Shown: piece by piece, positions 27,845 through 34,881 of the stretch
Layout of the letters: every line of letters starts with the position of its first letter
Position numbering within the stretch: the stretch's first letter is position 1
Source of the DNA: Paramecium sonneborni
Taxonomy: Eukaryota > Ciliophora > Oligohymenophorea > Peniculida > Parameciidae
Assembly: GCA_905182985.1 (NCBI GenBank)
Contig: CAJJDN010000043.1
Location: 348,112 to 412,111, forward strand
Length of the DNA: 64,000 bases
Direction: 5' to 3'
The notes under the pieces: generated by a model
The model's database searches: none
Seen by the model: the letters and a program-made list of their open reading frames with translations, nothing else
What the model was told of the DNA's origin: nothing
Translations under genes and position numbers: made by a program

Positions 27845-28326
27845 ATGACTAAAAAAACAAAGAAGGTGGGAATCACAGGTAAATATGGTACCAGATATGG
27901 TGCTTCTTTGAGAAAAATAATTAAGAAATTCGAAATTTCTTAACATTAAAGATATTTCAACACCTTCACAGGGGCTGTATGATTTATATTGAATTATTAG
28001 CACTCTTTAAAAAGATAAGCAATAGGTATTTGGAGATGTACATAAACAGGATTACAAATTGCAGGTGGAGCTTGGGAAGTTAAGTAAGTTAATTATTTAT
28101 CATGAGTACTCCAGCTGGATTGTCTGCTAAGTAAGGTATGCTTAGAATTAAGAAATTGAAAGAAGATGCAGAGGTTGAAGTCAAAGATGAAAAGAAAGAT
28201 CAAAAAACAAAGCAATAATAATAGCCAAAAGAACAAAAGGAATAACAATAAACTTAATAATAAGTTTAAAAAGGAAAATAATAACAAGGAGGCGATAAAA
28301 AGAAAGGATAGGCAAAAAAACAATGA
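27845..28326 (+). CDS. Ribosomal protein eL43 (L37Ae) with degenerate zinc ribbon and C-terminal extension
   Basis: 144 aa from three exons; introns 27977-28000 (24 nt) and 28084-28106 (23 nt, ending GAG). The N-terminus ([20 protein letters not shown]) and A-G-G-A-W-E-V identify eL43, a large-subunit protein. The family has a C-x2-C...C-x2-C zinc ribbon. Here the first pair position reads Y-F-N-T-F-T-G with no Cys, and the second W-R-C-T-Q-T with a single Cys, so zinc binding should be lost. After the normal end (I-K-K-L-K-E) the protein continues about 50 residues in Lys/Gln/Glu-rich sequence. The usual protein has about 92 residues. Confidence 0.88.
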
Positions 28327-28534: not shown

Positions 28535-31500
28535 ATGAAAGCAATAAATGTTGGTATTGAAACTATAGAGATTTATTTTCCAAAGACTTATGTTAACTAA
28601 GCAGAGTTAGGTACTAAATATTTATAAGATTTTAGAATTATTCGATAACGTTTAATAGGGTAAGTATACGATAGGATTAGGATAAGTAAATATGGCATTT
28701 GTGAGACCTTTTGAAGATGTAAATACAATGGCATTGACAGGTATGTTGAAATTTAAAAGTTAGTGGTAACAAATTTATTAGAGAAAAATTAAATAAATCC
28801 TGCATTAATAGGTAGATTAGAAGTGGGTACAGAGTCATTGTTGGATAAATCAAAATCAACTAAAACTACTCTTATGAGATTATTTGGTGAGAACACAAAT
28901 ATTGAGGGAGTGACTTCAATTAATGCCTGTTACGGAGGTACTAATGCTTTATTTAATACAATTAATTGGATGTAGAGTGATGCTTGGGATGGAAGATTAG
29001 GAATTGTTGTATGTACTGATATAGCAGTTTATGCTAAAGGATCTGCTCGTACTACTGGAGGAGCAGGAGCAATAGCTATGTTAATAGCTCCAAATGCTAC
29101 TTTTACAATAGAACCAATAAGAACAACTTATATGAAAGATAATTATGATTTTTATAAGCCAAACTTTCATAGTGAATATCCAACTGTAGATGGTTAACTA
29201 TCAATATAGAGTTATTTATCATCTATCGATAACTGTATTCAATCTTATTTTAAGAAAAACAAAGATTTGAATGCAGATTTTTATTGTTTTCACAGTCCTT
29301 TTCATAAAATGGTTTAGAAATCTTTTTTAAGAGTTAAATTGAATGAATCTTTTGTTTAAAAAGTTGAAACTGGATTCACATTTGAAAATTTTAATGAAAA
29401 ATAGTCATAGATGCTTAAATTCTATTAAAATGATTGGCTTACTAAAGCTTTTCCATCTTGTCTTTTATCAAGAGAATTAGGAAATATATACACTGGTGCT
29501 TTATATGCAGGTTTAATAAGTTTAATTGAAACATAAGAAGATTTAATAAATAAAAGAATAATGATGTTTTCATATGGATCAGGTTGTGCAGCATCCCTTT
29601 TCTTTTTAAAATGTCACAAACCAACAGGAATATTGAAAAAAACAATTAAAATTTAAGAAAGACTATAGTAAAGAATAAGAATATCTTGTATTGAATATGA
29701 TCATATTATGCAATAAAGAGAAATCAATTATAATAAACATAGTTAATAATATTAACCAAAATAGGTTGATTTATATCCTGGAACATTTTATTTGAAATCT
29801 ATTGATGATAAATATAGAAGAGATTATCTTGTTCATAAACCATTAGAATTGAATTAAACCTCTGGTGTGATAATACTTGATAATTCTAAATCAATAAATA
29901 AAATTTAATAAATAAGAGATTAAATAAATAATAATAATTAGAGTGATTAAAATTTATAATAGTCTTAAAAATAATATAATTAATTATGGACTGGATTTTA
30001 TAAGAAAACAATATAATAAAGATTGGATTAATTGGAAAAGACAATGAATGTAAATGTAGAGCCATTTAAAGATGGAGGATTATCATTATAGAATGCAAAT
30101 TTGATGGTTGAAAATTGTATAGGAAAGATATCTTATCCACTTGGATTAGGATTAAATTTTTTAATAAATGGATAATGTTATTCTGTTCCAATGGCTATTG
30201 AAGAGCCATCAGTAATAGCAGCAGCAAGTGCAGCAGCTAAAACAATTAGTGAAGCAGGGGTTGGATTTTAAACTTATTCAAGTCGTCCTGTAATGATGGG
30301 TTAGATCTAATTACTAGATGTATAAAACTTTTCAAAAATTGAATGTTTAATTGATTCAAATAGATAAACAATAATAAATAGAGGAAATCAAGCATGCTAG
30401 AGTATGGTAAAAAGAGGAGGAGGAGTAGAAGATGTGAAATGTCGAAATCTAGATAAAGGTTAATGTAGTGTAGATGTTTTTATAAATGTATGTGATAGTA
30501 TGGGAGCAAACTTAGTTAACACAGTTTTAGAATATGTGGCCCCATTGATTTCTGAAATTACTGGTACAAGAGTTGGAATTAAAATATTAACTAATTTGTG
30601 TATGAATAGAAAAGTTACAGCATAATTTAATTTAGATATTGATAAAATGAATTACAAATAATTTAATGGAAAAGAAGTTGCTAAACTTATGTTGGAAGCC
30701 TATTAATTTGCTGAACTTGATATATATAGAGCAGTAACTCATAATAAAGGTATTATAAATGGGATAGAGGCAGTATGCAATGCTACTGGTCAAGATGCAA
30801 GAGCAGTTAATGCATCATTACATGGGTATGCATCGATAAATGGATAATATAAACCACTTTCAACCTTTAGAATAGTAAATAATCAATTTATTGGTGAATT
30901 AACAGTACCAATAAGTGTAGGAACTTAAGGAGGAGTCTTACCTTAAAATCCTTTATATTCTTAAATCTTATCCATTCTTGACTATCCCGATTCTTAAAAA
31001 TTGGCTGAAATAATTGTCTCAGTAGGGTTAGCATCCAATTTTGCAGCTTTAAGAGCTTTATCTATTGAAGGTATTCAGAAAGGACATATGACATTACATG
31101 CAAGGAATATTGCTATTGCAAGTGGCATTCCAGAACATTTAGTTGATGAAGCTGTTCTATTTATGAAAAATAGAAATAATTTTAGTAAATAAACAGCCTT
31201 AGAATTTCTTAAAGCTTATAATGTGTTCTATGAAATCGGAAAGGCAAAAGGTAAATAAATGAAAGCATTCTGTACTTTTTCTGGCTCTTTTGATTTGATA
31301 GGCACATAAGAAAAAGTAGATTTACATGTAGTCTTTGAATGTGATCAAAATAAGATTAACTTGAATTATACTGATGATTCTGCTATCAATAGATAAATAT
31401 TTGGTTTGAAAGGTTAAGAATGGCTAAAGAATCTCTTCTCTGTTTTGGACACTGTCAAAATTAATAGAGAAGCTGAATTATATTAATCCAATAATTTAAC

Positions 31501-32223
31501 ATCCAAATTAAAGCTTTTAGCTATTTTGATCAATTTACTATCTTTTAATATGTTAAGTCTTGATTTTGATAGATCTAAAAATTTCATATTGAATTAGAAA
31601 CCTTGTTTAGGAGGAGCTATATCTCTTAAATATGGATTATCACTCATGAATGAATTAATTCATATTTTTGAATATAATATCGATTAATTTGTTGGATTTC
31701 CATAATTAAGATAAGCCCTGATGAATGAATTAAATAACATTATTTTGGCTCACATCAAATCATTTGAATTATTACAATAAGCAAAACAAGGATAATTCAA
31801 TTTTGAGGAATTCTTATCCTCAAGATAAAAAAGATTATCTTGTACAATGATGTTACTTTGTGATTGTATTTCCTTAAAGAATTTCAATCCTTCAATTATT
31901 GAAGAGATTACATTACTTGGAAGGATCATTGAGATACAAATGACTTTGACAAGAGATACCTAAAAGTGGAATAAGTAAAGTTATTTTGTTATTTTAATAG
32001 ATCAACCTTATCTGAGCCAAATGCTTATACCTATTGGTTGATTTCTAATTAGAGTCTCATTCTTGGAGATAATAAAGAAGTCCTGGCTTCATTTTATAAT
32101 GAACATAATAGATTTTTGTTATCTCTGGTTCAAGAATTAGAATAAAAAATATCTCCTCAATTAAGTCATCTGAAAGATTAAGCGATGAATGCTATTCAAC
32201 TATTTTATAAACCGAGATTGTGA
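28535..32223 (+). CDS. Fused HMG-CoA synthase / class II HMG-CoA reductase with extra C-terminal domain
   Basis: 1204 aa, four exons, introns 28611-28635, 28741-28763 and 31975-32000; exon lengths sum to 3615 nt. Residues 1-430 are HMG-CoA synthase: G-K-Y-T-I-G-L-G-Q, the Glu motif L-E-V-G-T-E-S, catalytic Cys116 in [12 protein letters not shown], His in [10 protein letters not shown]. After an Asn/Gln linker, residues about 470-890 are HMG-CoA reductase of class [44 protein letters not shown], and catalytic His in [14 protein letters not shown]. There are no ER membrane helices as in class I eukaryotic enzymes. About 310 further helical residues are of unknown type. It would convert acetoacetyl-CoA to mevalonate in one polypeptide. 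Confidence 0.93.
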
Positions 32224-32234
32224 TAATTATATTA

Positions 32235-34881
32235 ATGAGTATTTTAAAACAAATATCAGAATCGAATGATTAGAACAAAGATATTCATCCTAGCGGTCCT
32301 AGACTTAGTTTTGATCAAGAATAACTTCAAAAATACTAGTTTTAATAAGTAGACTCCAACACATCAATACATCAAAATAAAATGACAAATACCATCCATT
32401 GTGAATCAATCATGATAAACAAGGATATTACCAAATAGGTATTCATAATAACCTTCTCTTTTTAATCAGTTAACTAGAAAAAGAAAGAGTGAATTTAAAA
32501 TTGGTTTTAATCGAACAAGTTTCTTAAGGACCATTAATAGAAATTCCCTGGTTTAAAAGTTCAAAAATGTTCTCCTAATGCGATCTTATGTATTAAGTAA
32601 AGAAAATAAGTATCTTCTACTTCAAGATTGGTGGTAAAAACCTACCAAAAGTAAAATGAATCATTATTTAAGGAAATCAATAAACTCATAGTCGCATCCC
32701 ATTTATAATATCTGGTAGTCGCATTTCAATTATTTTAACTATATGGTCACTATTTATTCAAATTCTCACTTTATGGATTACTCCTTTCATGATTTCATTT
32801 TAATTAGAAACTTCAATTTTCAAAGTCTTCTTCCTTATTATTGTATTCTAAGTCTTTTTTGATATTTTTATCAAAATTAATAGTCCCTTGATTGTCAATG
32901 GAGAAACTATATTTGATAAAACTGAAAGGATTAAAGATTTTCTTAAAAACAGATTATTTGAAGATTCACTTTATATAACTACATTAATTGTCTCTTTTTT
33001 TTCAATCTTTGAGAATCATCAATTAAAAGGGGCTTTCTGTATTATTATCATATTTAAATCTTACAAAAAATTGAATCAGAATTATGAAAGCCTATCTGAA
33101 ATTCTTTATCTAAAAGGGCAATATCATTATGCGATTGATGTAATGTCCCTTACAATATTGATTTTTTCATATGCCCATGTTATGGCATGCATTTGGCATT
33201 ATGTAGGTGAAATTACTATTGATCAAGGTTAATCGTGGTTAATTCAAAGAAATCTGCAAAATTGTACAATTTGGGAAAAGTACAATTCATCTTTTTATTG
33301 GGCTACAATGACTATGTCAACTGTCGGTTATGGAGACATTACACCTACAAATCAATATGAAACTTTGGCAGCAAATTTAATGATGATTCTATCCAGTTGT
33401 ATGTTTGGTTATTCTATAAGTCAAATTGGAATGATACTCAAGAGTTAATATGAAGTCTAATAAAAATATAAGTAAATTCTGTGTTTCTATTTATTAGACG
33501 TTCAATTATAATTATGAATGCTTTTATGAAAAATAGTTAAGTTAATTTATAAATTTAAAGTAGAATTAGAAATTATCTCAAATATTAATGCGAAACTGAA
33601 GCTAATGAAAACAAAGAAGATATAAATAAAATCATAGCTGATCTACCTATTGGATTAAAACAGGAACTTGTTTAGGATTTTTAAATGAACATTATGAAAA
33701 AAATTAAAATCCTCAATAATCAGTTCTCTTAATCAACTCTTAAATAACTCTCATAGTATTTGATAGAATTCAAATTTACCCCTGGTGATGTTATTTATCA
33801 TAGAAATGATTAAAATGATCAAAGTCTTTACTATATACAAGAGGGCTTAGTGAATATTTATGAAGAAAATAGTTAGAAACTTTTACAATCTTTAAAAGCT
33901 GGAGAAACATTCGGTGAATATTAGTTTTTTACTGGATTTTAATCATAAACATCAGTTAGAAGTCAAGGTTTTGCCAAAATATTCAAATTGAATCGCTAAT
34001 CAATTTTGCAATTATTAAATTAGAATTCTAAAGATTTTTAAAGGTTTCATCATATTAAAGATAACATCATATTTAATAAGAATTACTAAATTGTCTAAAA
34101 AAATTGTAATTTTTGTAAAATGACAGATCATATAAACATTGATTGTCCACTTTTGTCTTATAAGCCAGACATTCTGTAAAGAATTAAAAAGGCTGAGTTA
34201 AAGCCAACTATATAATAGAGAAATCGTTTTTTAAGAAATAATGAGAAAGTAAGATGTTTAATGTTGCATTCAGCAATTAAAGATACTGTTGAAGAATATA
34301 AAGCAAATCTATCAAGTACTTAAATAGAAGATGTAGATATGAAATTCTTTTCTACATATGCCACTAAAGATTTGAGTAGTCATTATTGTTAAAAGGAATC
34401 TTTATTAGAAAAATAACCAAGTAAAATTCCTCCAGTTGCACCTTTGAAAAAAAATAATTCGTTTTTGATTAGATCAAGGAATTAATCTTAATAGAAGAAA
34501 GTTGGAATTTTTACTAATTTAAAATCAGGTTTCAGAGATTCTGATAGATAATTGAAGTCTGAATCTGAAGATGATTAACAAAATAATTCTCCTAAAAATC
34601 AAGTTTCATAATAAAATCTATTCGATTTTAATGATTTACATATGAATTAATTTGACGATTAGTTTTAAACGACAAATTTTAATATCGATAGATTAATGAA
34701 CTATTTTGGGTATATGCCTATGTCTAATGTTATTTATGCATTAAGAAAATATGAAAAACTTTATAAATATCCAAAAGTTAAGACAATTAATTATCCAGAA
34801 TCAGAATGCAGGAAATTTAGTATTCCAATGTATTATAGTAAAAGGGATTCAATAAATGAATTACTAAAAGAAAAATATTGA
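32235..34881 (+). CDS. CNBD-type voltage-gated potassium channel 2
   Basis: 853 aa; introns 32439-32469, 32691-32718 and 33472-33497 (31, 28, 26 nt). ATG lies 11 bp after the stop of the HMG-CoA fusion gene. The layout is the same as in the channel at 6325-9047: cytosolic N-terminus, S1 (W-S-L-F-I-Q-I-L-T-L-W-I-T-P-F), S2-S4, S5 with A-C-I-W-H-Y, selectivity filter S-T-V-G-Y-G-D-I-T-P (about 33315-33345), S6, C-linker, and a CNBD-like domain (G-E-T-F-G-E). Just after it comes the C-x2-C-x4-H-x4-C-P motif (34105-34146) followed by S-Y-K-P-D. The tail is long and ends with a helical segment (M-N-Y-F-G-Y-M-P-M-S-N-V). The GYGD filter predicts K+ selectivity. Confidence 0.93.

Follow-up and report, generated by a model that had tools for sequence, protein, structure and literature searches.

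A soluble HMG-CoA synthase-reductase fusion in Paramecium sonneborni with a predicted terpene-synthase-like domain and a likely peroxisomal address

Statins act on HMG-CoA reductase (HMGR), the enzyme at which isoprenoid synthesis is usually controlled, and in textbooks the eukaryotic form is a protein of the endoplasmic reticulum membrane. What, then, would a soluble reductase joined to HMG-CoA synthase (HMGS) be doing in a ciliate, and where in the cell would it act? The question is raised by a gene in a 64,000-nucleotide stretch of the Paramecium sonneborni genome (contig CAJJDN010000043.1, positions 348,112 to 412,111; the whole of this stretch is called the window). The answer we favour, if with some reserve, is that HMGS, a class II HMGR and a C-terminal domain (CTD) with a predicted terpene-synthase fold are carried by one protein, which a tag resembling the peroxisomal targeting signal type 1 (PTS1) likely sends to the peroxisome to make mevalonate. 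A eukaryotic lineage would then seem to have entrusted both steps to a single soluble protein of three domains that likely works inside peroxisomes.

That the two enzymes are encoded by a single gene, as the original prediction had claimed, is borne out. The spliced coding sequence (Table 1) is 3615 nt long, divisible by three, and under the ciliate code (NCBI table 6) gives 1204 aa with a single, terminal TGA; Pfam places HMG_CoA_synt_N (5.5e-48), HMG_CoA_synt_C (6.1e-58) and HMG-CoA_red (7e-101) in that order. In the protein database search a P. octaurelia 'unnamed protein product' of 1205 aa (P0001; proteins from the searches are numbered in this way) matches at 92% across 100% of the query, which lends independent support to the splice model. 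The joining of HMGS to HMGR is itself independent of the splice prediction, because exon 3, with about 1070 open codons, is one open frame across both, and neither a stop nor a frameshift interrupts the linker. The earlier gene model stands as regards the 1204-aa frame; what it had left unaccounted for are residues 896-1204 (about 310) and the KPRL ending.

Both halves keep complete active-site motifs, again as predicted: GTES (82-85), NACYGG (114-119) and FHSPF (236-240) in the synthase, where we take E84, C116 and H237 to be the catalytic positions, and EEPSVIAA (540-547), THNKGI (719-724), GQDARA (736-741) and GHMTLHAR (834-841) in the reductase, where the Glu, Lys, Asp and His presumably have the catalytic roles. 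By the NCBIfam models the synthase half is of the eukaryotic type (TIGR01833, 390.5 bits against a cut-off of 286.2, scored on the frame without the first 60 residues) and the reductase half is indeed class II (TIGR00532, 340.4 bits against a cut-off of 259.95). It differs in this from the class I enzyme of animals, plants and yeast, which catalyzes the same reaction and has a membrane anchor and sterol-linked regulation; TIGR00533 and TIGR00920 reach 34.7 and 23.7 bits, far under their cut-offs. The best solved-structure matches are an HMGS, presumably from a plant, and a class II HMGR, presumably bacterial, and no thiolase domain was found in the Pfam scan of the exon 3 frame. Joining the two enzymes might, as first proposed, channel HMG-CoA between them; in the predicted model of the P. 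bursaria protein residues 424-462 and 464-491, in the linker, fall under a predicted local distance difference test score (pLDDT) of 50, a pattern that suggests a tether more than a rigid tunnel. According to a review (PMC13412983), eukaryotes and archaea mainly have class I HMGR, and class II is predominantly found in bacteria.

TIGR00532 bears the name 'degradative', and a reductase working from mevalonate to HMG-CoA would suit that name. We consider this very improbable, since the reductase is fused to HMGS, since the fusion is one of just two HMGR matches in the assembly (91.5 Mb, 289 contigs, searched exon by exon with the best candidates scored), where downstream biosynthetic genes are also present, and since NCBI gives the same name to enterococcal thiolase-fused reductases, which act in biosynthesis.

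How widespread is this architecture? A whole-protein search of 5.8 billion proteins (best 100 of 7991 candidates) and a later search (best 120 of 8000 candidates) returned, among the matches listed, at least 36 proteins in which HMGS is followed by HMGR, namely P0001-P0034 plus P0126 and P0134, the last two of which start inside HMGS. By a family profile built in this analysis, with P0001-P0003 in its seed, 26 of the 36 (P0001-P0026) also have the CTD. Organism names are attached to four: P. octaurelia, P. bursaria and Protocruzia adhaerens (taxid 223996), which place the fusion in three named ciliates, and P0134, filed as LOC116244767 of the water lily Nymphaea colorata, whose contig is 31.9 kb long and which is probably a protist contaminant of the plant assembly. 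Tetrahymena, Stentor and Oxytricha are not named among the best 100 rows, a single listing in which many rows are nameless. P0012-P0026 are fifteen clusters of 1285-1296 aa whose longest contigs, at 3.9-4.4 kb, barely exceed the gene and are possibly gene-sized ciliate chromosomes; their endings are -xKL with a mostly unusual third-last residue. In Gorgonomyces (P0045) and Physocladia (P0049), which we take to be chytrid fungi, and in nameless proteins, this CTD follows a class II HMGR; the two fungal proteins differ from the fusion in having no HMGS and in not ending in [KR]L. The CTD, for which Pfam has no model, recurs beside class II HMGR in ciliates, chytrid fungi and nameless organisms. 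In proteins of the Mortierella group of fungi (P0051, P0054, P0063) the match to class II HMGR is split into separate stretches, as though inserts lay between them, and the profile detected no CTD.

Fused mevalonate-pathway enzymes are already known. Thiolase-HMGR fusions are among the matches listed (e.g. P0078-P0080), several of them named Enterococcus, and we take MvaE to be the name of the enterococcal acetoacetyl-CoA thiolase-class II HMGR fusion. MvaE likewise joins a class II HMGR to the enzyme of a neighbouring pathway step; its partner, however, is thiolase and not HMGS, and no CTD was found in it. Bacterial-type HMGR-GHMP kinase fusions (P0056-P0061 and others) also attach another domain to class II HMGR, but the partner is different, perhaps mevalonate kinase in P0056-P0061, the HMGR comes first and again no CTD was found. 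New here are the pairing of HMGS with HMGR, the CTD and the likely peroxisomal address; no earlier description of an HMGS-HMGR fusion appeared among the titles and abstract beginnings that searches of open-access PMC papers listed, which so far agrees with the original statement that none was known. Judged by Pfam domains, the protein searches also listed other odd fusions (P0056-P0061, P0072, P0100), of HMGR with GHMP kinase, of HMGS with ketoacyl-synthase-like domains and of HMGR with PF01070, presumably the FMN-dependent dehydrogenase family.

The argument for the peroxisome comes from the C-terminus. The window protein ends in -KPRL, the P. bursaria protein in -KSKL and that of Protocruzia in -KAKL, and other fusions end in -SKL, -AKL or -PKL. 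A final [KR]L is found in 24 of the 36 fusions, three of the ten without a detected CTD included (P0028 and P0032, -PKL; P0126, -PRL), and in 9 of 20 HMGR-CTD proteins, one of which is the CTD fragment P0102. The corresponding counts are 0/41 for bacterial-type HMGR fusions (MvaE-type, kinase and other fusions counted together) and 2/87 for other class II reductases, which mostly bear prokaryotic names and include a few eukaryotic rows. In the P. sonneborni assembly all nine acyl-CoA oxidases read end in -ARL, -AKL or -PKL, and both catalases end in -ARL. For the oxidases there were 20 match rows, some genes contributing several exons; 10 loci were taken, and rows beyond these ten that belong to other genes were left out. 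L045 was set aside as a near copy of L044 by scores, and in L040, L041 and L044 the frame was followed over a presumed intron to reach the end. The assembly also has three loci of the Pex2/Pex12 family, and an article (PMC7549135) reports peroxisomes in Paramecium caudatum.

Several observations weigh against a peroxisomal destination. The -PRL of the window protein fits the relaxed PTS1 pattern and fails the strict one, [SAC][KRH][LM], which is found in just 5 of the 36 fusions and 3 of the 20 HMGR-CTD proteins. Many nameless clusters end in -EKL, -MKL, -IKL or -LKL, and 12 of the 36 fusions have no [KR]L, four of which (P0004-P0007) are perhaps truncated because they end right after the CTD motif. 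A paralogue elsewhere in the assembly, described below, ends in -SRF. Finally, PTS1 is absent from the readable ends of mevalonate kinase, the decarboxylase, the isomerase, two prenyl synthases and the thiolases, as judged by eye in three-frame translations, with no full gene models to go by and with N-terminal type 2 signals (PTS2) left unresolved. Because of these readings the whole mevalonate pathway is not shown to be peroxisomal, and we set that wider idea aside as unsupported. They also suit a cytosolic bifunctional enzyme, in which the fusion would do no more than hold the enzymes at a 1:1 ratio or increase HMG-CoA locally and KPRL would be due to chance or to some other role, and so do the scarcity of the strict pattern and the fact that P0027, P0029-P0031, P0033 and P0034 have no PTS1-like ending of any kind. 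Such an enzyme would leave unexplained, however, why [KR]L occurs in 24 of the 36 fusions when just 2 of 128 other class II reductases have it, and why the oxidase and catalase genes read from the same genome, 11 of 11, end in -PKL, -ARL or -AKL; we regard the cytosolic enzyme as a serious but minority possibility.

If the protein is indeed peroxisomal, one PTS1 would bring the soluble HMGS-HMGR polypeptide into the organelle as a unit, and a single tag carrying both enzymes would be one reason for the fusion. Acyl-CoA oxidation in peroxisomes yields acetyl-CoA, and there the fusion may convert acetyl-CoA and acetoacetyl-CoA from fatty-acid oxidation to mevalonate, which would then exit to the kinase, decarboxylase, isomerase and prenyl synthase, in whose readable ends no such tag is seen. 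The soluble class II enzyme may have been used since the class I reductase, because of its membrane anchor, could not be imported by the PTS1 route. To what extent peroxisomes house the mevalonate pathway is an old question on which this protein bears and for which Paramecium is a tractable test organism, and a soluble single-protein mevalonate maker would be useful for metabolic engineering.

What the third domain contributes is harder to read. Pfam gives nothing for residues 896-1204 even at an E-value limit of 10, and six Pfam families drawn by nine CTD pieces, one piece each (best AAA_32, E 0.0058), were judged to be chance. Structure prediction suggests that the whole domain folds as an all-alpha class I isoprenoid synthase, the structure searched being the model of P0101, a homologue carrying an HMGR fragment, and not that of the window protein's own CTD. 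Against this assignment it must be said that the best Foldseek E-value for the P0101 model is no lower than 2e-3, that the CTD profile matches the diterpene synthase 8zwz weakly (E 0.058), and that no terpene synthase was listed for the larger profile A4 (HMGR plus CTD) within an E-value limit of 1. A CTD-only protein database search, limited by its length filter, gave three proteins, two with HMGR and one a 202-aa fragment.

Could the CTD be active after all, as an atypical terpene or prenyl synthase of class I, and the protein thus yield mevalonate plus a terpene? A predicted fold that spans the whole domain would agree with this, as would the strongly conserved acids among 24 CTD relatives (E405 in 23, D413 in 24 and D380 in 21). 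The domain differs, however, from class I synthases such as isoprene synthase (3n0g) and a pimarane-type enzyme (7e4m) in its metal motifs: the NSE/DTE motif of helix H is found in none of the 24 relatives, a relaxed DDxxD in four at scattered, unrelated places, and neither in the window protein's CTD. In the best sequence alignment, to 8zwz, R/H stands at the N metal position and R/K at the S position, R/H-D-x-x-R/K replacing NSE, and the steps from mevalonate to a substrate would need to happen elsewhere; activity of this kind is therefore unlikely. A candidate shifted NSE motif, E-x3-T-x3-D, was dropped when the 8zwz profile alignment favoured another register, with RD under ND. With less confidence we infer that the CTD is a pseudo-synthase whose metal-ligand positions have turned basic. 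By metal-free binding of a diphosphate, for example a prenyl diphosphate, such a domain might signal the output of the pathway to the reductase; alternatively, it might serve as a scaffold. In the fullest form of this proposal, which we put forward tentatively and think rather doubtful, a eukaryotic class II HMGR would have captured a decayed terpene synthase as a metal-free prenyl-diphosphate sensor and, with HMGS, entered the peroxisome on one PTS1, so that ciliate mevalonate would be made from peroxisomal acetyl-CoA under direct product feedback. If true, the CTD would do in soluble form what the sterol-sensing membrane domain does for class I reductase, and its use for sensing would be a new mode of pathway control.

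The HMGR family has two places in the assembly, the fusion gene and contig C20; the Pfam HMGR model used, which we take to cover both classes, also matches archaeal control genomes. The N-terminal HMGS family is matched at the fusion gene alone, in two rows, and neither a class I reductase nor a second synthase was found in the assembly among the best candidates scored exon by exon. The C20 locus (L005:5747-8105) encodes HMGR plus CTD without HMGS, with its start codon in the linker region, and shares 63% identity with residues 423-1135 of the window protein; its frame keeps the GHM motif and is not an obvious pseudogene, and its last intron allows two splice choices, of 22 or 28 nt. It is likely a paralogue that lost the synthase half. 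Matches to mevalonate diphosphate decarboxylase and prenyl synthase lie above cut-offs in the assembly, and mevalonate kinase-like and isomerase-like matches are significant and under cut-offs. The prenyl synthase matches occur as tandem pairs (C19:726007-728081 and C51:475177-477119).

Where did the reductase come from? Horizontal transfer had been proposed for it. The more careful of two trees has 97 reductase rows, picked from 222 proteins and from 7 loci found by a reductase scan of prokaryote genome contigs; six of these loci are titled archaeal and four are in the tree (L030, L033, L034, L036), L036 being titled uncultured bacterium, mislabelled 'archaea' in the quick tree and left ungrouped in the careful one. 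A branch with support 99/96 separates the 23 grouped prokaryotic reductases from the fusion and fungal rows that were grouped, so that a recent bacterial gift to Paramecium finds no support; the gene may instead have been acquired long ago, at the root of the eukaryotic clade. Six fungal rows lie together (100/97), as do the window protein, P. octaurelia, P. bursaria and the C20 copy (100/99), and the Paramecium rows are placed among other fusion and HMGR-CTD rows. The quick tree sets 64 rows apart (SH-aLRT 96): 25 fusions, 21 HMGR-CTD, 5 fungal/EukProt and 13 unlabelled. In the careful tree the fusion label changes twice among grouped rows. Holding the fusions together (26 rows, including the C20 paralogue, against 29 others) costs only 2.08 log units (p-AU 0.457, approximately unbiased test), so a single origin is possible; it is neither shown nor rejected. 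The quick tree requires 6 label changes when HMGR-CTD rows are counted as unfused, but some of these rows may be fusion fragments (P0035 starts inside the reductase).

Table 1. Features of the fusion gene, in window positions
Feature	Position	Strand	Remarks
Gene	28535..32223	+	HMGS-HMGR-CTD fusion, four exons, three GT..AG introns
Exon 1	28535..28610	+	followed by a GT..AG intron
Intron 1	28611..28635	+	25 nt, GT..AG
Exon 2	28636..28740	+	spliced gene model
Intron 2	28741..28763	+	23 nt, GT..AG
Exon 3	28764..31974	+	open frame from HMGS residue 62 through linker and HMGR into the third domain
Intron 3	31975..32000	+	26 nt, GT..AG
Exon 4	32001..32223	+	ends in TGA stop
HMG-CoA synthase domain	28535..29827	+	residues 1-415, contains two introns
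Linker	29828..29989	+	residues 416-469; matching stretch of low confidence in P. bursaria model
Class II HMG-CoA reductase domain	29990..31261	+	residues 470-893
CTD	31268..32220	+	residues 896-1204, intron 3 inside; fold predicted from a homologue's model
CTD motif RDTQKW	31952..31969	+	R1124, D1125, K1128; aligns with metal-binding NDLYS of diterpene synthase in family profile
KPRL ending	32209..32220	+	predicted PTS1

Upstream, the fusion gene is adjoined by a frame at about 27845-28100 of the window that reads like what we take to be ribosomal protein eL43. On its 3' side, at about 32240-34881, lies a channel-like gene with the pore sequence TMSTVGYGD, presumably a cyclic-nucleotide-gated potassium channel. 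A channel-like gene also stands upstream of the C20 reductase (L005:3178-5400), so that the neighbours are kept and their order is swapped relative to the fusion locus.
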